A stretch of 64,000 nucleotides of DNA from assembly GCA_902806565.1 (NCBI GenBank), contig CADCXA010000058.1:1-64000 (forward strand), in the 5' to 3' direction. Source of the DNA: Hypoxylon rubiginosum. Its lineage: Eukaryota; Ascomycota; Sordariomycetes; Xylariales; Hypoxylaceae. This document shows positions 10,480-41,405 of this stretch, piece by piece (position 1 is the first letter of the stretch; each line of letters opens with the position of its first letter). Position numbers and translations under genes: made by a program. The notes under the pieces were generated by a model that did no database searches, was not told the DNA's origin, and saw only the letters and a program-made list of their open reading frames with translations.

Positions 10480-10664
10480 TTGGATATTTTGGATATCGCC
10501 AGCGACAGGGAGGAGATCAGGACTTGAGACTTTCGGTATCACGAGCTAGGTCAGTGCACCCCCGAACGGGATAGTTTAGGTAGCCATACGACCAGGACAA
10601 TGACCCATACAAGTCATTTATGTCATGCGCTTACTGATTCCGGTCCGTGACTTAATAGATTCTA

Positions 10665-14905: not shown

Positions 14906-17203
14906 TCATGCGCCCATTCGGCATACTAGCCTACTGCTAAGAGGCGCGTGGCGGTCCGTTCGTATCTGCAAGCACTTATCGTGCAATGGACAAGACCCAT
15001 CTTCGCGGATCCAAGCCGGCTCAAAGCTTACGCCGTGCTCTGATACCTGCTGGAAACAATACCAGCCCTGTTCCGAGCTACTCAGAATCAGGGCGAGGTT
15101 TTCCCTCGAGCGAGGGGTCATCGACCCGGCGCAGATCGCAACGGCCGCCTCTGAACGGGTCAGCGACGAGCCGGGTTCGATGGTAGGTTGGTGGTGTAAT
15201 AGAAAGCCCGTCACCTCGAAAACCGTACCAACCCATTCGTGCCTCTCCGTCTCTGCTTCCGTCTCCGTCTCCGTCTCCGTCTCTTCTCCACCACCCTCGT
15301 CCTCGTCCTCCTCGTCTGAGTCGAGGCGCCGTCGCTTCTGAGGCGGACGTAGTAGGACAGAGGCATATTTCTTCTCCTTCTTGAGAGCTTCGGCTTCTTC
15401 CGTAAGCTTCTGGTTGGATTCGGCCAGATTTCGAGACGTGTCGGCGGTATTTATAGCCTCTTGGGTCATACGGCTGATCTTGTCCTCCTTTTCGCCGATC
15501 GTTCCCTTCAGCTGCTCCACCTCTCCCTTGAGAATCCCGACCTCTTCGGTGAGACTGCTCATCCCACTTTCGAGGCCCTGGATCTTTGTCTGCAAAGTAT
15601 TGAGCGACTCTTGGGCCTGGGCGAGTTCTCCTATCTTCTCCCTTAGCTTCGCGCCTAGGTTCTCGCGCTCGTCATTCGCCCCTTGCCGTACCCCGCGCAG
15701 CTCCGCCTCGTTGACAGTGAGGTCGTGTCGAAGCTGTTCGATAGTGGTGTCGCTAGCTTGGGCCTTGCCGTTGCTAGTGTCAAATTCCAGCCGGAGCCGT
15801 TCGATCTCGGCTTTGTAGTTATTGACGGTTCCCTTGTTAGCGACGAGTTCTTCTCGAAGTCGTTCAATCTCGGCATTGCGATCATTAACGGTGCCGTTGC
15901 TAATGTCGAGTTCCCGCCGTAGCCGTTCTATCTTGGCGTTGTATTCGTTAACAGTCCCTTTGCTAACAACAAGTTCCTCCCGAAGCCGTTCGACCTCGGA
16001 ATTAACGGTGTAGTTGCTAGTTTCGAGTTCCAGCCGTAGCCGTTCGATCTCGGCTTTGTGGTCATTGAAAGTTCCCTTGTTAGCGACGAGTTCCCCCCGA
16101 AGCCGTCCAATCTCGGCGTCGTGGTCATTAACGGCGCCGTTGCTAGTGTCGAGCTCCTCCCGAAGCCGTTCGATCTCGGCCTTGTGGTCATTAACGGTGT
16201 CGTTACTAGTTTCGAGTTCCCGCCGTAGCCGTTCGATCTCAGCGTCGTGCTCATTGACGGTCCCCTTGCTAACGACGAGTTCCTCTCGAAGCCGTTCCAT
16301 CTCGGCATTATAATCGTTAACAGTCCCTTTGCTAACAACAAGTTCCCCCCCAAGCCGTTCGATCTCGGCATCACGGTCAGTAAGGGTTCCCTCTCTTTCT
16401 TGCAGAGTCTCCCTTGCGGATGCCAAGTCTTCAAGCAAAGAGGCGGATTCTGCTCCGAGGACTTGGGCATTGCGAGTTTGTTCGTTAACCCTAGTTGTCA
16501 AGTTAGCAACGGTATCATTCCGATCGGCCAGCTCTGCTTGCAAGTCGTCGATGGTGCATTGCAACTGGGTAACTTCTACGCCCTTCTCCTCCGCCAATTG
16601 CGTATTGGAGGCTTGCAGGTCGGTTGCTTGAGCACGAGCCTCGTCAAGCTGGCCCAGCAGTTCGGCAGCCTCGGAAGTTCTCTCCAGAACGTCGCTCTGG
16701 GTACCCCTTATACCTGCTAGGGTCCCTTCCATTTCTCCCAACCTGGTTGCCAATTCGGAATTGGTATTGTCGGCATAGATCCGCATCTGGCTGACCTGCT
16801 CGATCAACCAGGTGCGGTCCTGCTTATGGATATCGTCCATATCCATACCCCGTAGATGCAGGGACTGTAGCTTGACCCCGAGTTCCCTGAGTTCACCCAG
16901 CGCGCTGTGCTGGGCTTTCTCTTGGGACTTGAGATCGTTACACCTACGATTCAGTTCCTTCTCTGCACCCTTGGCAAGATTATACTTGTCGCGCACGCCC
17001 TGCAGCGTTCTCTCTAGGTTTTTCTTGAGAGATTCGACAGAGCGGACGATCTGTAGGAAGTAGTCTAGTATCTCTTGCCTATTCTGTCGTGCGACATCTG
17101 CGTCGTCGGCCATCTCCTGAATCATCCGCATGCTCGGTATAAGCGTAGCGGTCACCTCCTCCAACTCGACAAGGGAGGGCATGATGGAAGTAGGGGAAGA
17201 CAT
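14906..17203 (-). CDS. Long coiled-coil protein with ten 21-residue repeats (765 aa)
   Basis: I recognise no named family. The protein is one uninterrupted exon. I start at the ATG at 17203 (GCC ATG TCT); the frame stays open 12 codons further but without an ATG. Residues 1 to about 75 form a head (LIPSMRMIQEMADDADVARQ...ILDYF) shared with the short gene at 40331-40721. Then comes heptad-rich coiled coil to about residue 630. Within it are ten copies of a 21-residue unit of three heptads, consensus AEIERLRxELxxSxGTVNDx, spanning roughly 16380-15770 in DNA. One copy is three residues short. A basic KKRRRL patch precedes an acidic/Thr-Glu run, and a C-terminal domain of about 110 residues containing five Cys and Trp-rich strands follows. 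It probably forms a rod or scaffold; location in the cell cannot be told. It is the outermost gene of the orphan block. Confidence 0.8.
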   Translation of the reverse strand: MSSPTSIMPSLVELEEVTATLIPSMRMIQEMADDADVARQNRQEILDYFLQIVRSVESLKKNLERTLQGVRDKYNLAKGAEKELNRRCNDLKSQEKAQHSALGELRELGVKLQSLHLRGMDMDDIHKQDRTWLIEQVSQMRIYADNTNSELATRLGEMEGTLAGIRGTQSDVLERTSEAAELLGQLDEARAQATDLQASNTQLAEEKGVEVTQLQCTIDDLQAELADRNDTVANLTTRVNEQTRNAQVLGAESASLLEDLASARETLQEREGTLTDRDAEIERLGGELVVSKGTVNDYNAEMERLREELVVSKGTVNEHDAEIERLRRELETSNDTVNDHKAEIERLREELDTSNGAVNDHDAEIGRLRGELVANKGTFNDHKAEIERLRLELETSNYTVNSEVERLREELVVSKGTVNEYNAKIERLRRELDISNGTVNDRNAEIERLREELVANKGTVNNYKAEIERLRLEFDTSNGKAQASDTTIEQLRHDLTVNEAELRGVRQGANDERENLGAKLREKIGELAQAQESLNTLQTKIQGLESGMSSLTEEVGILKGEVEQLKGTIGEKEDKISRMTQEAINTADTSRNLAESNQKLTEEAEALKKEKKYASVLLRPPQKRRRLDSDEEDEDEGGGEETETETETEAETERHEWVGTVFEVTGFLLHHQPTIEPGSSLTRSEAAVAICAGSMTPRSRENLALILSSSEQGWYCFQQVSEHGVSFEPAWIREDGSCPLHDKCLQIRTDRHAPLSSRLVCRMGA
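15770..16400 (-). repeat. In-frame 63-bp coding minisatellite
   Basis: About ten tandem 63-bp units encode the 21-residue coiled-coil repeat of the 765-aa protein. Units alternate between a VVSKGTVN/VANKGT type and an ETSN/DTSN type, so the higher-order period is 42 residues (126 bp). Because 63 is a multiple of three, the other frames also stay open here, which produces long but meaningless plus-strand frames. Confidence 0.85.
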
Positions 17204-17918
17204 GGCTCGATTGTATTGCTTCGGCTTCTGTCGCTTCAATTTATACGCTTATAGAGACAGAGACACACAGAAACAGAAAGCCTTTGCATGGAAAGTAGAG
17301 AGGATGGAAACAAGATTCTAGCTACGTTGTCTATATAAGTTCAACTACCGAGACTACTTTAGAGTTAGAATTGGTAAGCTATTTCGCATAGCCCCTGTCT
17401 ATGTACCTGAGCTATAGGCTACTTAGGCCTAATAGACATGCTACCAAGGGGGTAAGGTTTGCCTATGAACTTTACGGTGACACCTATTACCATACCTACC
17501 TATAGGTAGTCAGACCGGATTGCCTAGGTACCTAGCTTTGAGCTTTAGGGTGTATGAGCTTTGGGGTGTACAAGTTACAGGAGTCTTGGACTCGGCCATT
17601 TGAATTCAAGCCATATGACCAACCTTTATAGGATCCGGTATAGGATCACTCTACAGGCTTCATACGTAACATTCACGATGGATGGATCAGATGTCAGATG
17701 GTGGTAAGATCAAGCCTCGCGCTGCATTGCACTGATTACGCTGTATTGCATTTGCTGTCTTGTTAGAGGGAATATTATAATACTCGCCTAGGTATAATCA
17801 GATACAAAGTGCTACTCTAGCCTTGTTCGCTGTCTGTTCCCGTACCAAACACAACCCTGGCTGTGTTGAAGGCTGGAAAAAGACCAGAATCATTGCGGAT
17901 CCCCTACCCCTATCCCGC
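17204..17918. other. Intergenic, no gene seen
   Basis: AT-richer DNA between two minus-strand genes, with scattered CCTACCTATAGGTAG and CCTAGGTACCTAG palindromes near 17490-17530. It must contain the promoter of the 765-aa gene; I cannot place a TATA box or operator with confidence. Confidence 0.4.
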
Positions 17919-19298
17919 TTAATCGTCGTCTTCCGATTCCGATTCCGATTCCGATTCGAATTTGGATTCGGAAAGATCGCCAAACATGGCTCCTGATGTC
18001 TGTTGGAGAATAGCATCCAACTGGTCTACCTGCTGTTGGACCTCTTCGATTCGCTTCTCGGCTTCCTTCTCTGCTTTAGGGAACTCGGTCTGGATCGATC
18101 CGATCTCGAGTTCCAGCTGATTCGTCTGATCGATCAAGTCTTTTAGTTCCGTCGCGGACATGTACTGAGCCTCGATCTTCTCGATCGCCCCACGAATCAT
18201 GTCCGTGCCTTTTCGAGAATCTATAGACTGCCGGAGGTTTTCTCCGAACCAAGGACGTCTCGCCCATACGTGGATCTTGGTGTTCCTGTACACTTCTAGA
18301 TTGGTATCACCCCTCGTCGCGACGGCGCCGGGTTTGGCCACGTTGAGCCCGTCTATGGTGATTAGCGACTGTGCCAACACGGTCACCAACGCCTCGGCGT
18401 GTTTGATCTGGGACTGCTCCCAGACCATTATCATGGGGACGCGGTGTACCAGGGGCCTCAGTCCCAGGCGGCGGATGCACGACTGGAGAAGTCGTAGCAT
18501 GCGCGTCGTCAATTTGAGGTCGCTGACGTCTGGATCGTGACCGACCAGACGCCTAGACACTCTGCGGGCGCAGCCGGCGTACCCCGGGCTCGAGGTCTGG
18601 TAGGTGTTCTCGTCGTAGCCTCCGGCGATGCGTCTACCGAGCATCTCCTTCATATCTTTGATGCTGACCTGGCCCTTTACGCTGCTGGCACAGTTGGGCT
18701 TTTTCAATTCGTCACCTGGAGCCCACCTCTTCTCATCGGGCTCCGTCTCGTTATCGATGAGAAGGGCCTCCTCTACGGCTTCTCGAATTCCGGATGGTAT
18801 CTGGCTTTGGTCAAAGTTCTCTTCGAGTCCGTTGACTACCCAGGCGTCGCATCCGGCCCTGTAGCTGTCGAGGTAACCCATGACCTCTTCGATCTCCTTC
18901 CCGTTGAGGAACGCGCCTTGCCGGCCCTCGATTGATATCGCTACCACGTAGGTACCGGGGCCGTTCGGTTCGTATATGTTACCCCAGTTGGGCGAATCTA
19001 GGTCGTGGAGGTCGTAGCCGATGTGGCCGAGCACTAGGGACCGCAACGTCTTCCTGTGTAGGGTATGGAAGAGGATTCGAAGTTGTGCATGATTCTCCGA
19101 CCCCGTATCTTCAAAGTCCTCGACAATATTGTCGCATACGATCTTCTGGCGGCGAAGCTCCTTGGCCATGTCCATCACGAGAGGGAACAGGCTGTCGAGA
19201 GATTCGCCATTGTCGATTCCTTCGGCGATTCCTTTCGCGAGCCTTCCGAGCGTCGGCATCGTAGCGGAAGCGCGAGGTAGGATCGATTCCGAATCCAT
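17919..19298 (-). CDS. Orphan 459-aa protein with coiled coil and acidic tail
   Basis: Not recognised. Single exon with a clear ATG at 19298 that lies inside one arm of a 14-bp inverted repeat. The N-terminal half is a mixed alpha/beta globular region. Residues about 120-135 (YVVAISIEGRQGAFLNG) look like a beta hairpin and about 265-320 (RMLRLLQSCIRRLG...MIMVWEQS...LVTVLAQSLITIDG) are hydrophobic helices and strands. Residues about 385-440 form a coiled coil, and the protein ends in FESESESESEDDD, an acidic tail that could bind basic proteins or nucleic-acid-bound complexes. A second locus at 31094-31213 keeps only the first 39 codons with the start codon mutated. That shows this start is the evolutionarily used one and that the gene was once duplicated. 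Confidence 0.8.
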   Translation of the reverse strand: MDSESILPRASATMPTLGRLAKGIAEGIDNGESLDSLFPLVMDMAKELRRQKIVCDNIVEDFEDTGSENHAQLRILFHTLHRKTLRSLVLGHIGYDLHDLDSPNWGNIYEPNGPGTYVVAISIEGRQGAFLNGKEIEEVMGYLDSYRAGCDAWVVNGLEENFDQSQIPSGIREAVEEALLIDNETEPDEKRWAPGDELKKPNCASSVKGQVSIKDMKEMLGRRIAGGYDENTYQTSSPGYAGCARRVSRRLVGHDPDVSDLKLTTRMLRLLQSCIRRLGLRPLVHRVPMIMVWEQSQIKHAEALVTVLAQSLITIDGLNVAKPGAVATRGDTNLEVYRNTKIHVWARRPWFGENLRQSIDSRKGTDMIRGAIEKIEAQYMSATELKDLIDQTNQLELEIGSIQTEFPKAEKEAEKRIEEVQQQVDQLDAILQQTSGAMFGDLSESKFESESESESEDDD

Positions 19299-19408
19299 GA
19301 TGCTTCAATTTGATAATTCGATGATTCGATAATTCGATAATTCGATGATTCGATAATTAGAAAATTCGATAGAGTAACAATAGGTAAACGTAAGAATTGA
19401 AGCATCAT
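19297..19408. promoter_or_regulatory. 14-bp inverted repeat over the start codon of the 459-aa gene
   Basis: ATGATGCTTCAATT at 19297-19310 is repeated perfectly inverted as AATTGAAGCATCAT at 19395-19408, with an 84-bp AT-rich spacer made of GATAATTC-type repeats. The left arm includes the start codon of the minus-strand gene. The outer flank of the right arm (GTGTTGGGTAGAGTTTTGC, then AGAACAGAAAGG) is conserved beside the relic copy near 31.3 kb. It could fold into a 5'-leader hairpin or be a paired binding site. Confidence 0.55.
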
Positions 19409-20569
19409 GTGTTGGGTAGAGTTTTGCAAAAGAACAGAAAGGATCGCGTCGCGCATTTTAGGCCGCAGTCTGTGGATGCGACTGCCGATGGGTGCTGGGT
19501 TTTATGGTACCTTCCAAGTACAATGCCTAATGCCTAAAACGTGCTACGATACTTTACAGCTAAGGCTCTCTATAGCTAAGGCTCTCTATAGCTAGGGTAT
19601 AGCAGTCAAAATCAACTATCAGGGCTATTTAACTGAGCCATATTTGACTACCAGTATCAAGTACCTATAATTCGGTTTCCGACTAGATACAGGATACAGG
19701 ATACAGGGCAAAGCCTTGCTGTTCCAGTACATCGAAATTCAAGATGCTTATCCGCGAATTCGATTGAATTACACAAGCCTTAATTGAAGGCCGAATTCGA
19801 ACTAAAGGGTTTCCAACCTGGGGCGTTGAATCAGCTGGGTCGTGCGCGGATGAGAATGAGGCTCTATGGGCATATTACTCTAAACACGAATGTTAATTGG
19901 GTGCATGGGATTCTTAGATGCAGGTAATATCGCCTATATTGTCTATATAGGGGAGCTCGAGAGTGCTAGGTTGGATCCCGAGGCTATCCTGTTGGGTTGG
20001 GAGTTGAGAAAGGGCCTCTTTATATCAATGCATCCAAGTTAGGAGCCTCTTTTCAAAGTGTTTACCTTTCCAATGTGACTCGGGTTGATAGGCTGATTCG
20101 ACAAGCCAGCGCTGTTTGTAACAATGAAGCCAAGTTATTGGTGGTAGGCTAGACGACGTACGCAAGTGGCTACTTTGAACCGGAACCCGAATCACGGCAG
20201 TGAATGGGTACGGGTAATATCAACAGCTTGAAGCCTTTCCAGACTATCCTACTCGGGGTCTCAGAAGATGAGTGCAGTTCTACGATCTACGAGACTGTAC
20301 AAGGCTACAGGTCTACAAGACTACGGGTTTGCCAGACTATAGGTCTAGATTTCGGTAGGTCTACAGGGCACAAGACTCAAAGGTGAAAATCAAACAAATT
20401 CAATGCACTAGAATCTAGTTCTATTTCATACCCTCCAGATCGAAGACGCGAGAAAGCAACGGAACCCTAGCAGACAGACAACCCCAGACAACCCAGACAA
20501 CCCAGACAACCCAGACAACCCAGACAACCCAGACAACCCAGACAACCCAGACCAGACAACCCGGACCCC
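19409..20569. other. Intergenic, no gene seen; CAGACAACC minisatellite
   Basis: About 1.1 kb without a credible gene. 20471-20566 is a tandem array of a 10-bp unit CAGACAACCC (roughly nine copies) ending next to the stop codon of the following minus-strand gene. A 62-codon frame beginning at the ATG beside the right arm of the inverted repeat (19407) is not conserved at the duplicate locus, where the third codon is a stop. Confidence 0.5.
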
Positions 20570-22121
20570 TTACAGCTTGAGGTCACCCAACAGGGAGGTC
20601 ACATCTATGCCGGCATCTCGCATGTCCGTCAGGATGCTTACCCGGATTCGGGAGATCCAAACGACCACGGTCGGGCGCATGGACTCGCAACTGGAAATGG
20701 TCTCCTCACACACCTTCAGCCTCTTTAGGCGAGGCATGATGCTATCCCATATCAGCTCCTTCTCCATAAAGTAGTTCAGGAGCTTCTCGTAAACTACAGG
20801 GGAGTCACCGGCCTTATCAAGCAGCTGCTCGAGGCGAACCTGGATCAACTTGGTCGCTTGAGCCTGGATCAGCATCTGTCGCTGATACTTGGTCAGACAG
20901 CCGAAGCGCTCGTCCAGGACAAAGTCGTCGAGCGAGTTTCGGACGACCTCGTAGTCAAGGTTGTCCTTCTCCGGGACCATCAGCTCGGCAGCCCTCTTCT
21001 CGGCGGCTTGGCTAACCAAGTGCCGCTGCATCGCGAGAACCTTGGCGCCATACTTGCCAGAGTTGGGATTGAGCTCGTGGCCCTGTTGCAGTCGGTCCTT
21101 TCGCCGATCCGATCGAGCCTTATGCTCCTGACTCCTTTCGGCAGCCATGTAAGCGAAATAGCAGACCGTTTTGACGTTGTACATGTCGCGGAGCTGCTTG
21201 GTGAGGAAGACGTTACGTCCTCGTATCCACTCCAGGTCCACGGTGAGCAGGTCGAACCAGGCTCGCTGGAATCTGGAAAGGATGGAGGAATCCCCTCTCA
21301 GCTCGGCGGCCTTCAAGTCCACCGACTCGTGGAAGTCTAGGCACAAGAATATCTGGTTGTCGGCGTTCCTGACGGTAATAAGGACCACCTCGTTACCGCC
21401 GAGCAGGCGTGCCGCTTCCTGCATCACGGCGGACGTCTCGTCCTCGTCGCGAGCGATGCACTTGTGAAATGAAATCTCCACGTCGTTGTCGGGAAAGCGA
21501 ATGGTGAAGGGTTCGATACAGCCCTCCTCGTACGGACGGCCGGGAAACATCTTAGCCCAGAGCTTCACGAGGTACTTTTGGTTCCTCTGGACGCCCTGGG
21601 GAATCTCTTCCTGGGCGCTGGTGACGGGGCTGAGAGCCTTCGCCTCCATACGGCTGATGCCTTCCGCGATGTCTTTCGCCATACCTTGCTGCCAGCCTTC
21701 CGGACGCTCCCGCATCTCGAGGTAGGATAGGTAGAATTCGCTGTACGGCGCTCCGTATACCTCGGGACGCGGGTAATGGAATTTGGGACCTTTGCCGCCC
21801 TTTCTCTCCTTGACTGCGATCGTTAGCCTTTTGTCTCGGGTACTTCATATCCAGGGAAGTTAACCTACACATGATAGCCCAGAGGTTTCTCTCGCAGCAC
21901 CAAGAGAAGTAGTCTGAGGAGATGGTCGGCAGCACGCCATCCCTAGCGAGACCACCTGCCAGAAGCTTCTGGTGGTCTCTATACTTGGCTTCTACATGGG
22001 CTTCTGTTAGGCCGTCGATCGTCATGTTGTTCGTGATGGTCTTGATAACATCTCGGCGACGTTTCTTCTCCTCAGCCGACAAGGCCGCGCGCTTCTCCCA
22101 AGCGGGAATCTCTGCAGACAT
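20570..22121 (-). CDS. Orphan 498-aa protein, two exons
   Basis: Not recognised. Exon 1 is 22121-21869, the intron 21868-21814 (55 nt; GTAGGT, branch-like GGCTAACG, GCAG) and exon 2 21813-20570. Joined, they give 499 codons including the stop, and the frame reads NLWAIM|FKERKGGKGPKF across the join. The start ATG at 22121 begins MSAEIPAWEKRAAL. The N-terminus is basic (EEKKRRRDVIK), the middle is alpha/beta (PFTIRFPDNDVEISFHKC, then NEVVLITVRNADNQIFLCLDFHESVDL), and the C-terminal half is mainly amphipathic helix with KARSDRRKDRLQ. No signal peptide or membrane segment is visible. It is one of only two genes in the block with a clear intron. Function unknown. Confidence 0.75.
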
Positions 22122-24371
22122 CTTGAGGGGTAGAATGAAATGAATGGGAAAAACGAAGGGAGAAAGGCTGTTGCTGGTGCTGCTGATGCTTCTGATGCTG
22201 CGTTGATCTTGACGAAGCTGGAAGAAGGAAAGAAAAGTCAAGTTTCAAATATGGCGGAATTGGTATGATATCTACGATTCTGTCATAATGTTCTCAGCCG
22301 AAAACGGCCTCTAAAGCTCTCACTAGATTGGTAAGGTAATATTTCAACACGGGGTGTGTATCACGAGGTATATGAGTCACTAGCCTAAGATCCGTGGGTC
22401 ATCAAGGTGTCTACGCCGACCACTTATACCCGCGGAGTCCCACCTGTACTACATCAATTCTCAGGTGACTAGATAATACAGGTACCTAGACCATATAGGT
22501 TCCTAGACTGTACAGGTATGTCTAGGTAGTTACTGGATGTAGGAAATCATTGTAAGAAAGCGATGGCGGCGAGGAGCTTGTCAATATTAGGATATGGCGA
22601 TATCGGGAGGCGGTTACAAATGGTGAAATTCCTTAGCGTATGTCTAAGTGTTCTCACAGGTGTAAAAGCTGTGTCTACCATGATCTTATGTGCCTCTCGA
22701 TTCACTGATTCCTTCGTCCGAGCCTTACAAGCAAAAGTACTATACATTCACCTGGGCCTAGGGGGCAGATGGTGCTCCTACAGAGAAATTACGACTGTAC
22801 TATTAGCCAAGTTCAAGAGAAGTTGGAGATGAGTAGCTCAATGCATCGGGAGGCTTTGAGTCGGTCGAATTGAAGGCTTCATTCATGTAGTTCGAGTCTT
22901 GAATTTCAATGTCAAACCTCATTTCCGACAAGACGTATGTGGGCTTAGCAACTGAGCCAGTGCATTGGAATTTTCGCAATTGGCTATTAGCTAGCATCGA
23001 GCTGATCCGATGACAATTTCATACTGGCCGCTTACGCGTTGAATCCGTGAATGACAGGCTTAAATCAAATCATTACTCTAGCATTAATATGCTCTTTCGG
23101 GTACGATGGTTGTTCGCTTATACATTCTCACGATATGAGCCTCGAACGTAAGCCCCTGTTCCAGTGCAATGCTACTCAGACTCTAGATTCAAGGTAAATA
23201 TCTCTACTGATTCATATTCGTGCACGCCTCTCTTGTAGGCTACCCTCTTAGACAAGTATCCTTCGACATCGCGTTTCAACTTGGCAATACGGATCCCTAC
23301 AGGCGATCTGCTGAAAATGCAAGCCCCTATCCACTTCCCCCTATCCACTTCCCCCACGCGCTAGGGAGTAAGATGCGGGGATGAGAAACTGTCAAACGCC
23401 GGACCTGTTCCGATTGGCTCAAAGAATGTAAGCTGACGACCCACTTGAGGCTTGCACGGTGGTGATAGGTTAATTCAACGTCCTAGTTCAATCTGTTAGG
23501 TAGGTAGTTGAAAATAGTTACGTATAGGCTTTGAGCTGGGCAAGATGGTACCCAGGTCCTCGTTCGAGTATCTTAGGTACGTAGTAACTAGCTTGGCTTA
23601 GGGCGGGAGATATCACCTTTGGCTTTGACTCGAGACCCCTAACATCGGCGAGGGATGAGGGAGAAGCATTCGACGTATTTACGATTTGGGAATACGCGAC
23701 TTTACATTTTCGAGGACGTCGTATGGATATATACGCCAGGCTGGATCTTGAGAACTTTTATAAGCTGTAGATAGACTTCTAGCCCTAAGATTGACATGGC
23801 CAGGTAGGCCATCTAGGGAGAAATGATGGGTTGACCATAGCTATACAGCTAGGCATACGAGAGGTCAAGAATCTTGATAATATGCACGTATTCTAAAATA
23901 GTTGTACCTACATATGTAAGTATGTAGTTACTTGCTTAGATACCTAGGTACATAGCCAACAAGCCCTATAGCAAGATGTCTAGTTTAGATATAAAAGCCG
24001 TAGGTCCCAAGCTCCAACTATTAGATACTCTTTATAATAGCCTTCAAGCCATGCTGTAGAATACCAAGTGAAAGTTCATTATGTAGTGGAGTTGTACCTG
24101 AGCGGTACTTATTGGCTGGGTGCCAAGTTAGGTAAGCAACTGCCGCGTCGCGTCCCAGTATGAAAGCACGCGTTTCTGCCAGCATTTCCAAAATTGATTT
24201 CTTTCCTTTACAACAACTTCGACATCTTGACGAGCCCGCCCGAACCAACCCAACCAAGCCTACGAACCCGCCCGAACCAACCCAACGAAGCCTACGAACC
24301 CGCCAGCATACCTACCTACCTCCTACCTACCTACCTCCTACCTACCTACCTACCTACCTACCGCCGTCAAG
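22122..24371. other. Intergenic 2.2 kb, dispersed repeat and microsatellites
   Basis: No credible gene. 23548-23720 is the second copy of the dispersed repeat at 10665-10825. Several ACCTAGGT-type palindromes occur (22.48-22.53 kb, 23.93-23.96 kb). 24234-24304 holds two copies of a 32-bp unit (CCCGCCCGAACCAACCCAAC...) and 24309-24364 is a CCTA/CCTAC microsatellite, both in the presumed 5' leader of the next gene. Confidence 0.5.
23548..23720. repeat. Dispersed repeat, copy 2 (pair with 10.67 kb)
   Basis: Matches 10665-10825 through ACCCAGGTC, CGTTCGAGTA, AGCTTGGCTTAGGGCGGGAG, GGCGAGGGATGAG and GAATACGCGACTTTAC in the same order. It shows that the block shares material with the outer subtelomere. 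Confidence 0.7.
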
Positions 24372-31213: not shown

Positions 31214-31287
31214 GATGCTTCAATTTCAATAAAAGAACGAAAAATGGAACGAAAAAATTCAGTTGTGGTTCGAATATGAAGCATCAT
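31212..31287. promoter_or_regulatory. Inverted repeat beside the 459-type relic
   Basis: ATGATGCTTCA (31212-31222) and TGAAGCATCAT (31277-31287) form an 11-bp inverted repeat like the 14-bp one at 19297-19408. The outer flank (GTGTTAGGTAAAGTTCTGC, then GGAACAGAAAGGA) is also conserved. The left arm overlaps the mutated start codon. Confidence 0.5.
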
Positions 31288-31290
31288 GTG

Positions 31291-31610: not shown

Positions 31611-32935
31611 TGACATTCTCTGCGTCTTTGAGCGAGTTGTACAGGGTCTCGAGTTTGGGAGGATAGACAGGTGTATGCGTGTTTGTATGTCGAGTGTGTT
31701 GGGTGGGAGTTTGATGTGCGTCTCTTCAGTCTTGTGGCCCTTGAGAGAGTTGTACAGAGTGTCTCTAATATCAGTGTATAGGTCTTTGGATCTTGAGTGT
31801 CGAATTGAAGTTTCGGGTCTCTAGGTCGAACGGTTGAGTGTCTCCCAGAGTGACATGTTAAGTGCGTACTTTCGCCTGCGTTACTTCAGGTTGGGATATC
31901 GAGTATCGAGGGATGCAGAGGGATGAAGAAATGCATGTGTCTGACTGTGTCAAATGGAAGTCTTAGGTCTGTAGGATTTGCTGTTGAAAGCTCGTAGTTT
32001 ACGATTTGAGGACGCAGTTGCATATGGTCATCAGTATGGCGTGCTCTATCGATGGGAGATCGATGGGAGATCTGTCGACGGGAGAAGCGAGGCGAGGATG
32101 TGGCTTTCCAGAACCTCGTCTATTTAACAGGTCAGAATCTTCAGATTTCGAAGTAAAGCAAGTCACCCTTTGAATTGGAGTCGACTCAAATAGGGGGCTG
32201 GCTAGGTATGTCAGGATAGGGGCAATTGTTTGATGTTCAGCGTTTTATGTGTTTGCATTGTGATGGAAAATATGCAGCGCTGTTGAATGGAGGTTAGGTT
32301 TGACTCACAGGATGTCAACTCACTGGACATAAGGTTCAATTGCCAGTAGCATCGTTAATGCAGTCGTTTCCACTTGTTCTGTGTTCTGTAGCTATGCATC
32401 TTGCATCTTGTAGTTCTGCGTTTGGGCTGTGATAGTGAGGTTGGAATTGAAAGCTGAGAAGACTGAAGACTGAAGACTGAAAACTGAAAACTGAAAATTG
32501 AAGGGTTGGGGCCGAGGGAAATGGCTAAAAAGGTTAAAATCATAGGAGTAATAAATTCGAATAACGAATCGAGTAACGCGAGGAGTAACTCGTGCATAGG
32601 TACCTGCCTAGGTAGATGCCTAACTAAAGCGGTGCTGCACATGTACCTAGATGTCATGTCTCTACACTGGTATGTACCTAGGTATGTTGGCAATTGATTC
32701 ATGTTTCTAATATCGTGACCTCTATCCTATGTATATACCTAGGCTTCAGACTTCAAGGCTTCAAGACTTGCACGGCTTCAGGCCTCAAGGCTTGCATAGC
32801 CTCAATGTACTCGGGATATTCGCTGTCTCGTATGTCTCGTGTCTCGTATATTAGACAGTAATACGCTTCAATTCACAATTATAACTACCTAGGTACCTAG
32901 TAGGTAGCCTGCTAGCCTACTAGCATCCAAGTTAC
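31611..32935. other. Intergenic 1.3 kb, no gene seen
   Basis: GT-rich on the plus strand at 31.6-32.0 kb. A short ACTGAAGACTGA repeat occurs near 32460-32495, and CTAGGTACC palindromes at 32.59-32.70 and 32.88-32.91 kb. A 115-codon minus-strand frame at 32355-32702 crosses these palindromes and shows no domain. Confidence 0.45.
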
Positions 32936-35026
32936 CTAACCGCCACCGATCCTCGAGCGAAAGGTGGTTAACGCCCAGCGCATCTCCTTAGGTTCCCGGT
33001 TGGGAATCACCAGATCCTCACCAGATGTAGGCGCAATGAGCCTGAAACTCCGGGTATCTATCAATTGGCCTCTGGTATTGTGAACCACGCGGACAGACGA
33101 GGCAGCAAAGTCTACCACAAAGACCCAACCCGGCATATCGGGCAGGGCGATAATGCCCACGTCCTGGTCTTCTACGAAGAGGCAATCCCCCGAGGATGCT
33201 CTCTCGCGGATCTTTGCTGCCCCACCATCACATAAGAGCTCGAAAAGCCTCAGGATCGGAGTATTGCACAGGTACTCTTCGAGTCCATCGTAAACTTCTC
33301 CGGCCTTCGCGACAGACAGCCCTGTCGCTACGAAAGATGCCGACTGGCAAAGGCCGAAGAAGAACAATTGGACAGGCGCCTCGGCCTGAGAGACGTCAAG
33401 ATTCTCCGCGTGCTGTAGATACGTCTCGAACGCCAACAGGACCAGGTTGATAGGTGCCGAACTGACATTGAACAGGCGCTGCATCAACGAATCGAGGATA
33501 ACAAGCGACTCTTCCTCGTAATCCCCAGCCAGGGCCCTAGCGTATAGACTGCCCGCCAGGTCGATAACGCCTGCGCTGGTGGGGTCCGCGTGCGGTACGT
33601 AGACCTGCTGGTCTTGCTCCCGTCGCCAGGTCAGTAGCAGGGTCCAGATACAGTTCTCCGTCGGTTTGAAAATCGATCCTCCGGAGACATAAGTTCCGAC
33701 GACGGCGCGCGCGAATGGAACCCAGCGGTCGGATTCGGCCGAGTCGGAGTTGGAGTTGGAGTCGGAATCGGAGCCGGAATCGGTCCTGTCGGGGTCGTAG
33801 CGCGCGGAAAAGTACCGGGCCAAGCCCAGCTCCCTCGCCGCGCTCGTCTGCTCCGAGTGCTGCTTTTCTTCGCAGACGTTCCTAAGAGACTCGGTTAGCT
33901 TCTCAGAATCCCGGAGCGCCTTACGACTCCCCCTATCCGCCTTTTCTAGTCGGCCCTCAAGCCCCGAAATCTTCTTGTCCTTGTCTACGATCTGATTCCC
34001 CAGGCCAGATACCTGGTTCTTCAGATCAGAGACAAGCGCATTTTTGCCCTTGAGCTCTTCGGTCGACTTGTAGATGCGTTCTTGGAGGCTCGCGATCTCT
34101 CTGTCTTGGCTCTTCAACTCGTCATTGGCGTTGTCGAGTTTCCCCTTGTTGGATTCGAGATCGTTCTTCAGCTGAGCGACTTGGACCTTCAGCTCCTTGA
34201 TGCGGCTCTCGCCATGCTCAAGGTCCCGACCTTGACCGTCTCTGATATCTTCCAAGGCTCGTTTCTCCCTTGCCAGCCCGTTCTTTTCGGCCTTTAGATC
34301 TTTGTGCCCGCTTTTGAGTAACTCGAGCCTGACCTGCATCTCGGCGATTTTGTCGTCTTTGCTGCGCTGATCATCCTCGGCCTTTTTACGAAGGCTCTTG
34401 CACTCCTCTAGCTCTTCTAGAGTTCTGCGCAGTCCATCATTGGCCTTGTCTAATTCTCGATTGGCCGAGCGAGTTTCAGCTTTCGACCTATCGATGTCAG
34501 CTTTCGACCTCTTGATGTCAGTTTGCAACCCATCGATTTCAGCTTTCAACCCATTGATGTCAGCTTTCAACCCATCGATGACCACCTTCGCACGGTCTTC
34601 AACCCCCTTGCTTACAAGGGTGCCGAGAGCTTCACGGTGGTCATCCGAAATGGCGCGAATGAAATCTAGGTTTCCCTGTTTCGCGGTAACGTAGAGAAGA
34701 GCGTGATCGAACACGGCCTGCTCCATAGACTCGGTAGCAGCCAACAATTTACGTCGGTCGATTGCTCCACTGCTATCCTTGAGACTGTCGATGAACTCTT
34801 TACCCTTCCGGGCTTGCCTATGAAGCTTTCTGAAGCGCTTCTTTGCGGCCTTGTCCAACTTCTCTTCGTTTTTCAGCAGCTTGTCGACTCTCTCCCCCAA
34901 TCTGTCCTTGTCGAGGGCTAAGCCATGGAGATTCGCTTGCTTGACATCATCGAGATAAAACTCGACTTCCTCCTCACGATCATCCAACCTCTGGGTTATC
35001 GCATCGGCAGACAGTGGATTGTCCAT
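32936..35026 (-). CDS. Second long coiled-coil protein with globular C-terminal domain (696 aa)
   Basis: Not recognised. Single exon, ATG at 35026. Residues 1-140 are helical and basic (KAAKKRFRKLHRQARKG). About 140-410 is continuous coiled coil, with an early stretch of repeated DGLKADIN/GLKAEID/SKADIDR heptads. Residues about 425-450 are a DSDSNSNSDS acidic linker. About 455-696 is a compact domain (WVPFARAVVGTYVSGG, LVILDSLMQRLFN, APVQLFFFGLCQSASFVATGL, GWVFVVDFAASSVRVVHN). The architecture of helical head, rod and globular tail parallels the 765-aa protein, but I see no clear sequence match between the tails. It may partner with that protein or scaffold the helicase-like product of the divergent gene 1.3 kb away. 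Confidence 0.8.
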   Translation of the reverse strand: MDNPLSADAITQRLDDREEEVEFYLDDVKQANLHGLALDKDRLGERVDKLLKNEEKLDKAAKKRFRKLHRQARKGKEFIDSLKDSSGAIDRRKLLAATESMEQAVFDHALLYVTAKQGNLDFIRAISDDHREALGTLVSKGVEDRAKVVIDGLKADINGLKAEIDGLQTDIKRSKADIDRSKAETRSANRELDKANDGLRRTLEELEECKSLRKKAEDDQRSKDDKIAEMQVRLELLKSGHKDLKAEKNGLAREKRALEDIRDGQGRDLEHGESRIKELKVQVAQLKNDLESNKGKLDNANDELKSQDREIASLQERIYKSTEELKGKNALVSDLKNQVSGLGNQIVDKDKKISGLEGRLEKADRGSRKALRDSEKLTESLRNVCEEKQHSEQTSAARELGLARYFSARYDPDRTDSGSDSDSNSNSDSAESDRWVPFARAVVGTYVSGGSIFKPTENCIWTLLLTWRREQDQQVYVPHADPTSAGVIDLAGSLYARALAGDYEEESLVILDSLMQRLFNVSSAPINLVLLAFETYLQHAENLDVSQAEAPVQLFFFGLCQSASFVATGLSVAKAGEVYDGLEEYLCNTPILRLFELLCDGGAAKIRERASSGDCLFVEDQDVGIIALPDMPGWVFVVDFAASSVRVVHNTRGQLIDTRSFRLIAPTSGEDLVIPNREPKEMRWALTTFRSRIGGG

Positions 35027-36325
35027 CTTGGCTGCACGGAATGATGTCTCTATCTAGGTACTTGAGCGTTGATACGGAAGGACAGAGACTTGAGCGTTGA
35101 CATAGAAAACAGAGGCTTGACGGGGGACATGTGAGTGATGATGCTGCGTCTAGGTATTCTGCCAATTGATCTGCCAATTGATCTGCTAATTGATCTGCTA
35201 ATTGATCATTACCTGCCAATACCTAGCTATACTTTAGGTACTTACCTAGATAGTCTACAGTGCATACTTAGGGTGGAGACGCGGCAGTTTGGCTCGCAAT
35301 TGCCTCAACGTGTTCAGTGGGTGATTATAAGCCTAGCCCTATACTGTCAACCCGAGTTCCCCACTGAGGCCTGCTAAATTTCAGCAGGTAAGTTAAGGTT
35401 AGGTAGGATAGGTAGAGACCCTTAACTGACTACCTAGGTATTGGCTTTGTACGTAATAGTTTACCTCAAAGGGGTATCTACCTAGGTGTCACTGGAACGT
35501 TGATAATGCCAACTCAAGAACTCACGAGAATTATTGAGTGGCTCCTAGGCTTATGGAATGGCTTATGGAAATGTAAGAGATCCGTATTCGACTAGTCACA
35601 TTCATGTCATGTTAACAAGTTAACAATACCTACGTCTCTTTGCCTGAATACTTCAGGCTTCTGTAAATCTTGCCTGGATTATCGTATAGTGCTATTATGT
35701 CACCTGCCTATGACTCCAACTCTGATATGAAGGGTATCAACTTGTAGATGGTATGCTTCTAGTCACTAGTCAAGCCTACGAACGGTCAGTCGTAAAAAGG
35801 TTGACAATGGTCAAGTGAATTCATATCACTGCCAAGTTATACGAGGGCGTACAATGCCCACTGGGATAGCATGTATACCTAGGTGCCTAGGTGCCTATCC
35901 TAGGTGCCTATCCTAGGTAGATAAAATTTTGAATTCGTCCTTATTCGTACAGTCTACGTAGACAGGGCTAGCCTGTAATACCGTAAGAGACCGAGAGTTG
36001 ATACACTGGCACTGTGGCGCTTACCCATTTGGGTACCTAGGTACGTTTAGGAGACACCTCTCTGGCCTCTCATACCTCGCTAGCCTCTGACTCATCTGAC
36101 CTCTCTAACCTGGCTGACCTCTGACCTCTGACCTTTGACCTTTGACCTTTGGCCTTTGACCTCTGACCTCTGACCTCTGACCTCTGACCTCGCTGACCTC
36201 TAGCCATCCCTCCCATCTCGTCGAAATTTTCTAGTCACCTTATTCCACTTTACAACTTACAACACAACTTTGCCATCCTCGACGTCCTCTACCTAGCATT
36301 AGAGAGAGACAACTCTCGTCATCAA
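35027..36325. other. Intergenic between divergent genes, tandem repeats
   Basis: No gene seen. 35159-35207 has four copies of a 12-bp unit (TGATCTGCCAAT, later TGATCTGCTAAT). ACCTAGGT-type palindromes cluster at 35.43-35.49, 35.87-35.93 and 36.03-36.05 kb. 36113-36200 is a (CTCTGAC)n-like array just ahead of the next start. The 696-aa and 713-aa genes are divergent and share this 1.3-kb space. Confidence 0.5.
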
Positions 36326-38467
36326 ATGTCTTCACCTACACCTCCCCCTCCTAGCATCGAGTCCGCCTGGTATGCCAATCTCAAGGAAGTCACCGACTTC
36401 ATGATGAGAGGCGTAGAGGGCAAGGAATCGAGCGTAACTTACTTGCAATCCGCTCACGCATCTGGCAAGAGCACCAGCATGCTCGACTTCATTATGAGAA
36501 CAGTCTACGCGATGCGACCTAAGACGAAGCCTTGGCTCATCTACGTTCTCCCTCGCGACGTCGAGAGGGATTACGTGTCCAGCTACCTCGAATCTTTACC
36601 CCCTCGCGACGACGGCATCTTCCCGAATATTTCGAACAGCTTCGAGGATGGCTTTGTGATTTCTACGTATGAAGACTTTCTCAGCCACCTGAAGAACATG
36701 AAAACTAGCGGATGGCAGTGGCCCGAGAGGGTACTGATCATGGCCGACGTCGAGTTACGCGCGTCGGTGGCGGGTGAGATCTTCTTCGGCAAGCTACTGG
36801 AGCTTGTCAAGAAGAAGGAGTTCATCATAAGTCTCATGATCATGTCGCCGCAGAAATCGCTCAGGACGCTGTCGGCCTTCAAAGAGGTCATAGATCCTGT
36901 CTGGGAGATCGTGGTCCCGAATATCAGCCCTCGGCTCGTAGTCAATACCATTGAGAGCAGCGACTGGAAGCTAAAGTTCGCTAAGCTCGTTCACGAATTG
37001 GTCAAACGCGACAAGGAGGCCAAGGTATTCGTCGGTAGTTCCAACCCGACCTACCTGAACAATTACCTCGCGTCTCAAGCTTCTGAAGGTTCTGCCGTGG
37101 TTTCCTTCGTCGACCAGACGAACGTCGACGATCTGAAGCACATCCTTAACGATGAAGACCGCATCTTCGTCGTCAATCCCGAAGCCGGCCTCTCCGCCCG
37201 TGTCGAGGGGCTCCAGCTGCTCGTCTCGCAATGTACGACCGAGTCGGTCCTGTTCGACAAGATGACGAGCCAGCTGGTGGAGTGCGAAAGGGCCTTGACG
37301 GGATGCGAGATCGAACAGCAACATTCCTGGGCCCTCAAGACGTCGCTGCATCACGATGACGTCGACATCTATGTGAACATGCCGTCTCAGAAGCTCAAGC
37401 ACCTCCTTCGACCTGCCGATCCGTGGAGCCCGGCGTGGAACGTACACCTGCCGTGGCTCACCCTGCGCCTCTTTTCGACGTGGCCCAACGCTAACCCGGG
37501 ACGTCTACCCATCCGTCGGCCTCCCGACGTGTTTGCCTTTAGCGAGATGATGAGCAGACTCGCTTTGATGGGTCTCCTCGAGCAGGACGAGGAGAGGAAG
37601 GGTAGATACTCGACCACGACCCTCGGTACCTACGCACTCCATTGGATGAACAGTTGGCGTAGCATAGCTACTAACGCCGCCTACCAGCTACAAGTGCACC
37701 CCGCCTACCTACTAGCCGTAGCCACGACCAAGCAAGACCCCCCCCGCGTCCTCCGCGTCTTGATCCGCTTGGCGGCAATCTCGGCGCGCGGCATCGGCAA
37801 CTTCTGCGCCATCGCCAACCCCGGACAAGGGCACCCGACCGCCTCGGCTATCCGCGAACAGTGCCAGGGCATCGGGCGGAAGCTGTGCTGGAAGGGCGCT
37901 CTCTGGACGGCCTTAGGATTATACCAGAAAGGAAGGGAAAATGACGACTTTCGTACGGACAGCTTCTCGAAGCTCACGAGAGGTTGGGCGGTAATAAGCC
38001 CTTCCGTAGGATTCGAGATCTACCAGTCGATAAGCGAAATCGAACGTCGATTGCATATCGGCCCCGCCGCAGACGAGATTGGGGACACGATACTTAGTGA
38101 CGATGAGATTACTATCGTAGAGAAGCACCTGATGTGGGCATGGGTCCATAGAGTCGTCGGCATCCCTTGCGACGTCGAAAAGTCTCCGTTTGAAGTTGTG
38201 TCCGGCTCCAAAGTCGAGATAGACGAGGTCAGAGAGCTGTTCAGCATAAGGGATGCTACAGAGACGGCCCGCAACCAAGCCATCGGCGGTATCTTCGCGG
38301 TATATGACCGCCTCGTGCGTAGCCCGGAGGGAAATTCCGTAAAGCCGAAAGATCTTACGTTCATCCCTCAAGAACTCTATCAAGATGTCGAGGAGAAGTC
38401 GGGACTTCACTGGCCCTTCCCGGTCGCCACGAAGTACCCTTTACATCTTCAGAAGTACTGGTACTGA
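36326..38467 (+). CDS. SF2-helicase-like protein with intact P-loop but degenerate DExH box (713 aa)
   Basis: Single exon, ATG at 36326. Motifs of superfamily 2 (DEAH or viral-type) helicases appear in order. Motif I is SAHASGKSTSM near residue 45, a good Walker A. Ia is WLIYVLPRDVER (about 72). Ic is VISTYEDFLSHL (about 110). At the DExH position lies VLIMADVELR (about 137), in which the Asp-Glu pair is lost or shifted. Motif III is SLMIMSPQKS (about 168, normally SAT). IV is KVFVGSSNPTYL (about 235). V is IFVVNPEAGLSARVEG (about 275). VI is QLVECERALTGCE (about 312), with the QRxGRxGR arginines mostly gone. The C-terminal 380 residues are unknown; part of them (553-610) survives in the relic at 31.3-31.6 kb. 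It may bind ATP or RNA without unwinding. Origin from a viral or cellular helicase is inference. Confidence 0.75.
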   Translation: MSSPTPPPPSIESAWYANLKEVTDFMMRGVEGKESSVTYLQSAHASGKSTSMLDFIMRTVYAMRPKTKPWLIYVLPRDVERDYVSSYLESLPPRDDGIFPNISNSFEDGFVISTYEDFLSHLKNMKTSGWQWPERVLIMADVELRASVAGEIFFGKLLELVKKKEFIISLMIMSPQKSLRTLSAFKEVIDPVWEIVVPNISPRLVVNTIESSDWKLKFAKLVHELVKRDKEAKVFVGSSNPTYLNNYLASQASEGSAVVSFVDQTNVDDLKHILNDEDRIFVVNPEAGLSARVEGLQLLVSQCTTESVLFDKMTSQLVECERALTGCEIEQQHSWALKTSLHHDDVDIYVNMPSQKLKHLLRPADPWSPAWNVHLPWLTLRLFSTWPNANPGRLPIRRPPDVFAFSEMMSRLALMGLLEQDEERKGRYSTTTLGTYALHWMNSWRSIATNAAYQLQVHPAYLLAVATTKQDPPRVLRVLIRLAAISARGIGNFCAIANPGQGHPTASAIREQCQGIGRKLCWKGALWTALGLYQKGRENDDFRTDSFSKLTRGWAVISPSVGFEIYQSISEIERRLHIGPAADEIGDTILSDDEITIVEKHLMWAWVHRVVGIPCDVEKSPFEVVSGSKVEIDEVRELFSIRDATETARNQAIGGIFAVYDRLVRSPEGNSVKPKDLTFIPQELYQDVEEKSGLHWPFPVATKYPLHLQKYWY

Positions 38468-40330
38468 GTCGAGCCTTAGAGCCATTGCCCGGATATCTAG
38501 GTACCTAGGTTAGGTGCCTAGGTTTACCAAATTGCGAATGAATTACTTTACGTAGCTTAGCTAGTTTACTAGATTTCGAATGAATTCCTTTACGCGGAGG
38601 TCTCATGCAGTACGTAGTGAAGAACATGATTCCACAGTAATACCAAGTGCATGTCAAGATCCATCCTGGTATTCCATCTTACATTGAGATCACTATGACT
38701 ACATCTAGAACAATAGAACAATAGAGAGCACGTATGTAAATGCCTAGGATGTTACGTAGGTACCAAAACGAAGTGAATGGGGTCTAATAGCAGCGTCAGA
38801 TATGGCTCTCGAGCTTTGGCTATATCACGAAGCCAACCGATACGGAAGATGACTATATTCTTACGTGAAGAACTATAAGCCTAAGGCATTACCAGGCCTC
38901 TTATATAGGAGATCAGGACAAATGGACCTAGAACTAATAGGCCTTCGTAGTACTAGCAATCCTGCAACCCCTATCTACCTAGATAGGCTATGGGGAACCA
39001 TACGACTCTTTAAGAATAACTAACAGGTCTGTAACCCTACCCGAGTACCAAAGGCGAAGCTCCTGACAAATGGCTGCGCTCACACGTCATTAATAACAGT
39101 CGACAGGCTCGGGCTCAACAAGCGAAAAAGGTGCTAGTGATGTGATGAAGCCGGTGTATGAATGTGCGGCTCAAAACCCACACAAGTGAGTTCGATTCCT
39201 GCCGTGATTAACCAAAAGAAATTTTAATAAATTCTTTTTAGGTCTCGCCAGGCGTCCGAGGCTTTATACGGATTGAGTTAGGAGGCCATTGTGAATGGGA
39301 AAGCACTTTCATCGCGAATCGTTGCCACGTGAGGAAGAGGAATCTCACGCCGGCTTTCTCTGGCAATGAATTATCTACGTAGTACGTACTCACCACAACC
39401 GAAGAGAAAGTCCGACATCGGTAACAGTCCCAACAGAATACTTCATTAGGCACAAAGTGAGCAAGTTTCCTATTGGTTCTGTCGGAATATAGAGTCACAA
39501 GACTGTCAGACACAGCAAATGGTAACTAGGCATGTGTAAAGCAGGGCTCCCTCCATCACATACGTAGCTAGGTAGCTATTGACTCATATCCTGTGCCATT
39601 TACTAAGAAGCTTCTAGTCAGCTGAATTCCAAGTTCCGTAAACCACAACCATCCACTCGTCAAGATGGAAACAGGTAACCAAGTTCAGGGTGACCGCAAC
39701 GCGTCCGAATCTTGAAGCGTTGGAGCTATACCCTTCCCAGCTCCTTCTCCTATCGCCCAAGGCATTACGCGCGCTGAGGGTGGCGTTCGGTACCGTCCAC
39801 AGCAGCGGCATAGGGCGACTCAAACCCAGAGTGGGGAGGTTAATGGTCTCAAGAGGCGGTAACCAAGGTTCGACAAACCTCAGTCCAAACAGGATTGACA
39901 CAGACCTTCACAAGAAACGGACATGGGACACGAGCTCACGAGGAGCCTATGGAATGGTTTGATTTGTAGGATACATCCGAGACGGGATTTAGAGTAGATA
40001 GTTTAGCTGTAGCTCTGTACGCTGCATACCCCTAGCGATATCTGTGAGGGCTAGACCATTGCCAACAAGCCTCGAGGATACAAGAGCAAACTCGGAATTG
40101 CCTCTTCACAGAAGACTAGGCGTAGAACTTGTTACAGGTTCGAGAGGTTCACACGGGAATTGTAGACAACATAGATGCTAGGTAATTTTTAATTGGAGGC
40201 TAGTGTTACTCTCTCTCTCTCTGAAGCATACAGCTCTCTAAAGCATACAATTCTATAAAGCATACAAGGTTCCGCCAATCCCATAGCCTCTTAAGGGACA
40301 CTCCCAGCGACATCCATAGCGACGGTCCGT
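38468..40330. other. Intergenic 1.9 kb, no gene seen
   Basis: ACCTAGGT palindromes at 38.49-38.52 kb. 38995-39065 resembles 27565-27640. Near 39140-39215 a GAGTTCGATTCCTGC box and GCCGGTG...CGGCTCAAAACCC recall a mitochondrial-type tRNA, but no complete cloverleaf can be drawn. Opposed frames of about 90 codons at 39614-39962 show no domain. A CT microsatellite lies at 40209-40222. Confidence 0.45.
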
Positions 40331-40721
40331 CTACTTTAGGGGTGTACCGTCTTCCAAACGGGCGATCTCTTCATTCTTAGCGTCGAGCGTTTTCCTGAAC
40401 TGCTTTATGTTGCCTTTAAGGCCCTCGATCTCGATTTTGAGATCATCGATTTCGTTTCTAAACCACAAGATGTTAGTTGTTAGTATTCAAAAGCGAGTCG
40501 TGGGAGAGTTCTTACCGTAGCGTCCGGCATAGCGTCCGGCTGCTCTTCGTCTCGAGATCCTTCTTCAGAGCCGCGATAGATTTCACAACCGCCTCGAAAT
40601 AATTCAATATTTGACGACCTTTCTGTCGAGCCATCTCTTCGTCGTTGGTCATATCTTGCAAAGTCGACATGCTTATGATTAGGCTACTGGCGACCCTCTC
40701 GAATTCATCGAACACAGACAT
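40331..40721 (-). CDS. Short coiled-coil paralogue of the 765-aa protein (110 aa, two exons)
   Basis: Exon 1 is 40721-40516, the intron 40515-40458 (58 nt; GTAAGA donor, TACTAACAACTAAC branch, TAG acceptor) and exon 2 40457-40331. This gives 111 codons including the stop. Residues 1-60 align with the head of the 765-aa protein: DEFERVASSLIISMSTLQDM against VELEEVTATLIPSMRMIQEM, then ARQKGRQILNYF against ARQNRQEILDYF. The second exon adds one short coiled coil (EIDDLKIEIEGLKGNIK) and stops. The intron signals are strong, so this looks like a working short gene rather than a simple truncation. It could mix with the long protein through the shared head and limit its assembly. It is divergent from the broken gene at 41054. 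Confidence 0.7.
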
Positions 40722-41053
40722 AGTCGTTGTCTCTTCGTCAGGCTACACAAAGTGTCTCGATGCTTTGGATTTCGACGGTGTCGAGTTGCAGATTGATGCG
40801 CGAGGATTTGACGCTGGAGACGTGCTGTATTGATGAGAGGCTCTGATGAGAGGCTCTGATGAAAAAGACGAGGATGTGAGGATGTGAGAGGTTGATGGAA
40901 TTGATGTGCAAAGTTGGGAAGGGGATTAGGTAAATACCGAATGAGCTCATACACAAGCCCATCAATCCCCTAGTCACTAGCCTTTAACATCTCCTGCCGG
41001 TCTCCTACCAGTCTACCAGTCCCCTACCAGTCTCCTACCAGCCGTTCGTCGAA

Positions 41054-41405
41054 ATGCCAAACCACGACAAGCAAGCTCAACAAGCCGGAGCACTCCGTAG
41101 CCTCCATCAACGTAGAGGACGTCACTCTCGAAGAGGTTCACGAGAAAATCGAAAAGTACCTCAAGCAGCGAGGTACTAAGCAGAATGACAATGTAGCTCT
41201 TTAAAAGCTACACAAGATGGACGACTACCTCAAGCAAGCCAAAAGCGACGATACCGTCAAGGAGAAAGGTACCCTCCAAGACCTAGACAAGGAGTTGGAT
41301 AAGTACTTCAAGAAGCAAGCTACCGAATCAAAGCCCGATAAGAGGACTCTGGAGGATTTAAGCAGGGAAATAGAGGAATACTACAAGGATGGCCCCATTA
41401 TGTAG
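41054..41405 (+). pseudogene. Broken small gene with repeated Sub2-binding-like helices
   Basis: Four copies of a (T)LxDLDKELxxYxK-type helix are encoded: TLEEVHEKIEKYLKQ, MDDYLKQ, TLQDLDKELDKYFKKQ and TLEDLSREIEEYYKDG. They match the closing motif of the 334-aa protein (TIEDLDKEMEDYYKEG). The first is in the same frame as the rest but separated from them by a TAA at 41202-41204. The ATG at 41054 (MPNHDKQAQQA) is in a different frame from all of them. No good intron explains either break. It is therefore probably a pseudogene; the downstream ATG at 41217 could still give a 62-aa peptide with three motifs. Confidence 0.6.

Follow-up and report, generated by a model that had tools for sequence, protein, structure and literature searches.

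Results

The genes at the start of contig C58 of Hypoxylon rubiginosum and their counterparts on two other contigs, C15 and C32, form one co-inherited module. Our window was the first 64 kb of C58 (468 kb), in an assembly of 48.27 Mb and 70 contigs. A preliminary description of this DNA had noted eight large clustered proteins, and all eight open reading frames (F1 to F8) were recovered with the same coordinates and lengths (Table 1). These genes had also been called intron-poor, which holds, and six of them intronless, which does not: seven of the eight are single open frames and only F3 is spliced, its two frames being joined by one compatible GT-AG intron of 55 bases, the sole candidate given by our script. 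Public relatives agree in length (F8 684-714 aa, with one exception of 605; F2 408-518 aa; F5 339-406 aa). The proteins had been described as belonging to no family that could be named outright, and none of the eight reached the curated cut-off in a Pfam scan, for which the two frames of F3 were entered separately. Among alignment members, the Pfam matches of F8, F2 and F6 were weak and scattered and F5 had no match, and the profiles of F8, F2 and F5 found nothing useful among PDB sequences.

Table 1. Features of the window (contig C58) and genes of the two other complete sets
Feature	Contig	Position	Strand	Found by
Telomere repeats, CCCTAA x35	C58	2..211	.	read from sequence
Relic of F6 C-terminus	C58	13865..14119	-	own-genome search + BLAST
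F1, 765 aa: long coiled coil and conserved C-terminal domain with Cys/His	C58	14906..17203	-	
F2, 459 aa: GIY-YIG-type nuclease motifs and strand/helix order (putative); C-terminal coiled coil	C58	17919..19298	-	
F3, 498 aa: two exons (intron 21868-21814), no fold recognised	C58	20570..22121	-	
F4, 334 aa: Gln/Pro-rich; C-terminal end a predicted Yra1-like Sub2-binding peptide	C58	24372..25376	+	
F5, 383 aa: USP fold (modelled) without usual catalytic Cys and His	C58	25976..27127	+	
F6, 701 aa: acidic and Pro-rich ends, conserved middle, no fold assigned	C58	28741..30846	-	
Relic of F2 start	C58	31106..31213	-	
Relic of F8	C58	31328..31546	-	
F7, 696 aa: coiled coil and conserved C-terminal domain	C58	32936..35026	-	
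F8, 713 aa: probable degenerate DEAH-type helicase; GKS kept, DEAH changed to DVE, motif VI lost	C58	36326..38467	+	
Relic of F1 start	C58	40551..40730	-	
Short gene or relic: three Sub2-binding-like motifs, in-frame stop after the first; contains F4 tail (41337-41402)	C58	41053..41405	+	
F4 slot	C15	9217-10773	-	
F6	C15	11128	-	
F1	C15	13423	-	
F3	C15	15278-17125	-	
F2	C15	17909-19227	+	
F8	C15	19637-22331	-	
F5	C15	22709	-	
F7	C15	24697-26838	+	
F5	C32	691290	-	
F6	C32	693294	+	
F8	C32	697017	+	
F1	C32	699513-701025	-	
F3	C32	702313	-	
F2	C32	704489	+	
F7	C32	706219	+	
F4 slot	C32	709193-710605	+	
Contig end	C32	722538		

Complete and partial sets in the genome

Queries from the eight families matched 9 of the 70 contigs (C58, C15, C32, C39, C1, C60, C56, C68 and C37). 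The number of contigs with matches was at least five for F8, four for F6, five for F5, seven for F2, three for F7 and one for the main exon of F3, and at least four for the C32 version of F4 and two for the C39 version of F1; these are lower bounds, only the best candidates having been scored. The homologues are not scattered independently of one another, as seven of the nine carrier contigs hold two or more families. By reading 40-60 kb around the matches, with all-against-all BLAST and open frames, we identified complete contiguous sets on C15 and C32, with a gene order and orientation different from those of the window, and partial sets on six further contigs. Copying of the set as a group, as had been proposed, is well supported. 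The complete sets span 23.6 kb in the window, 17.6 kb on C15 and 19.3 kb on C32, with about 18-34% identity between them. Among the other carriers, C39 has only the F4 slot, F2, F8 and F1, next to its telomere, and C60 has F7, F2 and F6. On C56 we found F2, a weak F6 (blastp 1.5e-4; profile E 0.023) and an F4-type match at least 13 kb from the rest, and on C1 about 30 kb separate the F5 match from the other families. A DNA comparison of the sets found no shared ends. Within the sets, non-coding DNA is denser in the word GTACCTA (59 in 36 kb vs. 50 in 91 kb), but the comparison DNA is unmatched for promoters and we claim nothing from it.

Four families (F2, F5, F6 and F8) are linked across the three complete sets by BLAST. 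For the other three, the C32 members were tested by profile (F1, E = 4e-7; F3, 1e-5 for the first exon and 0.029 for the main part; C-terminus of F7, 5e-4), and in the shuffle control of the F1, F3 (both parts) and F7 scores, 0 of 60 shuffles reached any of them. For seven families, homology across the three complete sets is demonstrable. The window F4 shows no homology outside its tail with those of C15, C39 and C32, and 37 of 60 shuffles reach the C15 score. Homology of F4 between sets is not established, and we therefore describe the module as seven families plus one RNA-binding-type slot. The five families whose BLAST scores could be used (F2, F5, F6, F7 and F8) all pair the window copy with that of C15, the C32 copy being more distant from both; the window-C15 match was, for F7, the only one above the BLAST threshold. 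This same pairing in all five families is what the descent of sets as units predicts.

Relics or short versions of at least five families had been reported in the window, and those of F6, F2, F8, F1 and F4 were confirmed. Decay is also seen elsewhere: the F8 of C15 is fragmented around a dispersed repeat (21168-21589), a stop interrupts the F4-type gene of C39 and stops are present in the F2 of C60. Frame changes affect the F2 of C15 and the F8 of C39, and the F1 of C32 is split over two frames (sequencing errors or small introns are possible for the frame changes). Among the sets read, that of the window is the most intact. Between the F6 of the window and its C60 copy, dN is 0.29 and dS 0.76 over 500 codons, and the resulting dN/dS of 0.38 indicates constraint.

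Public searches covered F8, F5 and F2; for F8 and F2, scoring was limited to about 8000 candidates, those with the most shared words. All eight F8 matches listed belong to Hypoxylaceae, and the 15 F2 matches listed comprise 12 from Hypoxylaceae and 3 from Monosporascus, also in Xylariales. Six of the eight F5 matches are from named Hypoxylaceae, and one, on a 4.8-kb contig labelled Phytophthora cactorum, is probably a contamination. Co-occurrence in related genomes was read, for F8, F5 and F2, from the equal lengths of the contigs that carry them. In three of the five strains with at least two of them, they share a contig: H. cercidicola (all three, with consecutive locus numbers for F2 and F8), H. 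rubiginosum F4821 (F8, two F5 and F2) and Annulohypoxylon maeteangense (F8 and F2). In the other two, Hypoxylon sp. CO27-5 and H. rubiginosum F4820, they are on separate contigs.

Recognisable parts of the proteins

The tail of the window F4 matches the Sub2-bound tail of Yra1 in PDB structure 5sup (E = 0.0087), which gives computational support to the docking peptide for Sub2 suspected earlier. The F4 slot of C15 holds an RGG-rich protein whose tail is similar by eye and has no PDB match, and the F4 slots of C32, C1 and C39 hold CCHC zinc knuckles; docking on Sub2 may be limited to the window and C15 types. Like the TREX adaptors (yeast Yra1, human ALYREF), F4 has low-complexity sequence and a tail that is a near copy of that of Sub2-bound Yra1. 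Unlike them, it has no RRM-type Pfam match and is part of an orphan gene set, with zinc knuckles or RGG in the other sets. SARNP is described as binding UAP56 in a multivalent manner through other motifs (PMC12823420).

Along about 590 columns, F8 appears collinear with DEAH-box RNA helicases, through Walker A, the places of motifs II and V and the C-terminal part. The GKS of Walker A is invariant in 11 rows. In contrast to these helicases, motif II reads DVE in ten rows and DLQ in the C1 copy, and motif VI (QRxGRAGR) is unrecognisable. The hhalign probabilities against DEAH proteins are low (1.7 and 13%), although none of 60 shuffles scores as high; hhalign against one host DEAH sequence, or in global mode with three sequences, found nothing. 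F8 is probably not an active helicase, and its alignment fits the helicase-like protein without a DExH box that had been proposed.

For F5, the structure model has a USP fold with a low pLDDT (57.9), and Foldseek alone on this model found nothing at E <= 0.001. Read by eye in ten rows, its Cys-box is GNGLS-like and the usual His position does not hold a His; nine of the ten rows, C15 being the exception, retain a Cys deeper in the helix. The model thus lends computational support to the pseudo-protease considered earlier, which would have the fold of a USP but lack its usual catalytic Cys and His, as do the pseudo-USPs Sad1/USP39 and PAN2. In contrast to these, F5 has no detectable sequence match, and no zinc-finger or exonuclease part was seen. 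USP39 and PAN2 are described as lacking the standard triad, and claims of residual activity are also reported (PMC10919355). By eye, the C-terminus of F7 might suggest a decayed Ulp1-like protease, which we do not claim.

F2 carries the GIY-YIG motifs in the expected order, with G/Y in 16 of 16 rows, the second G in 14 of 15, the catalytic R in 13 of 15 (missing in 2) and E and N in 16 of 16. The hhalign probability is low (about 7%), and none of 60 shuffles scored as high as a profile match of 30 columns. A fold search with the whole-protein model, including the coiled coil and the insert, returned coiled coils and chance rows and no GIY-YIG chain. F2 shares with the GIY-YIG nucleases (UvrC, T5orf172) the conserved G, Y, G, R, E and N in order and a matching secondary structure. 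It differs from them by a hairpin insert of about 100 residues (also present in a host T5orf172 protein), by the absence of a Pfam or fold-search match and by the rows without Arg. F2 is probably a GIY-YIG-type nuclease, on weaker evidence.

Position on the chromosomes

Four of the nine carrier contigs (C58, C15, C39 and C1) begin with telomere repeats. C60, C56, C68 and C37 have no telomere at their start, and their copies lie at least 52 kb from it, e.g. at 434-439 kb of 1.23 Mb on C56 and at 146-151 kb of 397 kb on C60. The far contig ends read were those of C32 and C39; the C32 set ends 12 kb before the end of its contig, where the last 60 bases are not telomeric. The block had been called subtelomeric, which agrees with the four telomeric contigs and disagrees with the several copies far from contig ends: this position is a tendency and not a rule.

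Discussion

Our best reading, which we hold tentatively and below an even chance, is that the module encodes the parts of a single nuclear RNA-protein complex, which docks on Sub2/TREX. An RNA or chromatin complex had been one of the first suggestions, and of these an RNA complex best fits the recognisable parts. It is favoured by these readable parts, i.e. the docking peptide, RNA-binding-type proteins with low complexity or zinc knuckles, an apparently dead DEAH helicase, an apparently dead USP and a probable nuclease, and by the precedents of USP39/PAN2, herpesviruses and SARNP. F4 would dock the complex on the export helicase Sub2 via its Yra1-like tail, F8 and F5 would be binding scaffolds, and the coiled coils of F1 and F7 would give reach. 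F2 would be the sole candidate enzyme. As with herpesvirus adaptors of the ICP27 type, the likely effect would be to seize or police the packaging and export of some transcripts, perhaps intronless mRNAs of the module itself. Intronless genes of herpesviruses are described as entering TREX via the virus's own adaptor, ICP27/ORF57 also combining intronless genes with a protein that reaches TREX (PMC6177440); the comparison is one of logic only. The contacts between the proteins, the cutting by F2 and a benefit to the set or the host are what we infer. Mobility or selfish spread of the module is also possible.

Such spread is central to a second reading, possible but rather unlikely, in which a selfish or conflict module (a meiotic driver, an allorecognition or an interference complex) spreads among loci, the diverged sets being rivals and the decayed ones losers. 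The many diverged sets in this one genome, others partly decayed, the bias to chromosome ends and the restriction of the hits seen to Xylariales agree with it. However, neither a mobility gene nor shared ends were found, and the constraint on F6 argues against it, although drivers can show constraint too.

We consider unlikely an ordinary lineage-specific complex for RNA processing or chromatin, whose genes would be clustered as in other fungal clusters and duplicated by subtelomeric rearrangement. The GC at the third codon position is like that of the neighbouring genes (0.53-0.76 in the set vs. 0.56-0.67) and the recognisable parts resemble host proteins. However, the near-absence of introns, the extreme divergence of the sets and the decayed copies would be unusual for housekeeping genes.

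Descent from a large DNA virus, a linear plasmid or another virus-like element, of which the module would be a remnant domesticated in Xylariales, is improbable. The module's intron-poor genes, a content that stays constant while the order is shuffled and an export adaptor of its own, as described for herpesviruses (PMC6177440), would suit such a source. Against it, IMG/VR scans with F2, F8, F5, F6 and F7, which reach relatives sharing conserved peptides, and a search for F2 in prokaryotic genomes gave no confirmed relative; no polymerase, capsid or packaging gene was recognised, and the folds assigned are host-type. The virus or plasmid source envisaged at first has therefore no positive evidence. 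Cargo of a Starship giant transposon is highly improbable: the module is, like Starships, a block of several genes in a Pezizomycotina host, and its position varies, but the three captain-type (DUF3435) matches of the genome lie at C10 and at C60:62 kb, the latter with stops and 84 kb away from the set on that contig, and none is near a complete set.

Returning to the RNA complex, a more ambitious claim, which we regard as quite doubtful, is that of a new eukaryotic multi-gene element. It would be a reshuffling module of seven to eight genes encoding a TREX-docked RNP, made from dead RNA-processing enzymes and one nuclease. The module would export intronless transcripts of its own and, at chromosome ends, compete with its sister modules. 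We found no description of such a gene set or element in the open-access literature, an absence that is weak evidence. To our knowledge, no known system matches this gene combination. The novelty that we claim is that of the gene set, its functional role being putative.

A set that stays complete despite a shuffled gene order and sequences that have drifted to about a quarter identity bears the usual mark of a machine or a parasite. All its members are orphans, and the few parts that can be read point to the processing and export of mRNA. Should the proteins prove to be a single complex, this would be a lineage-specific machine for RNA made up of inactivated enzymes, in which the origin of new complexes, or of genome parasites that use TREX, could readily be studied in fungi.

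Repeated sequences and genes adjoining the eight-gene set

The heptamer GTACCTA was counted 59 times in 36 kb of non-coding DNA of the sets, vs. 50 times in 91 kb of neighbouring non-coding DNA, i.e. a density about three times higher, the neighbouring DNA not being promoter-matched. The window set also adjoins a multi-exon gene, which we take to resemble a Ski2/DDX60-type helicase; no counterpart of this gene was seen in the other sets.

Features in and around the sets
Feature	Location	Strand	Remarks
Minisatellite	window 15766-16371		63-base units (126 and 243 fit too); in frame, inside the F1 coiled coil
Multi-exon helicase gene	window 42980-48661	-	exons matched to Pfam DEAD and Helicase_C
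tRNA-Gly (TCC)	window 11958-12033	-	ARAGORN
Dispersed repeat	C15:21168-21589 (stretch L016)		~420 bases; inside F8 of C15, a broken copy

In the stretch separating the set from the telomere (window 850-10570), DNA comparison revealed numerous degenerate repeats, direct and inverted, of 50-560 bases each and ~68-88% alike, and similar internal repeats on contig C15 (3.1-7.0 kb). Stretches related to the tRNA-Gly gene were found by the same method at ~4.7, 9.6 and 11.4 kb of the window, which points to decayed tRNA-like repeats.

Further copies of the dispersed repeat were detected by DNA comparison on contigs C32 (717.4 kb) and C1 (64.9 kb). Adjoining the partial set of C1, another group of duplicated frames was observed at 84-109 kb (stretches L026-L029), with pairs such as 86573 with 101256 and 87920 with 107456 in an all-against-all BLAST.

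Finally, F1, the coiled-coil protein bearing the minisatellite, is probably variable in length.
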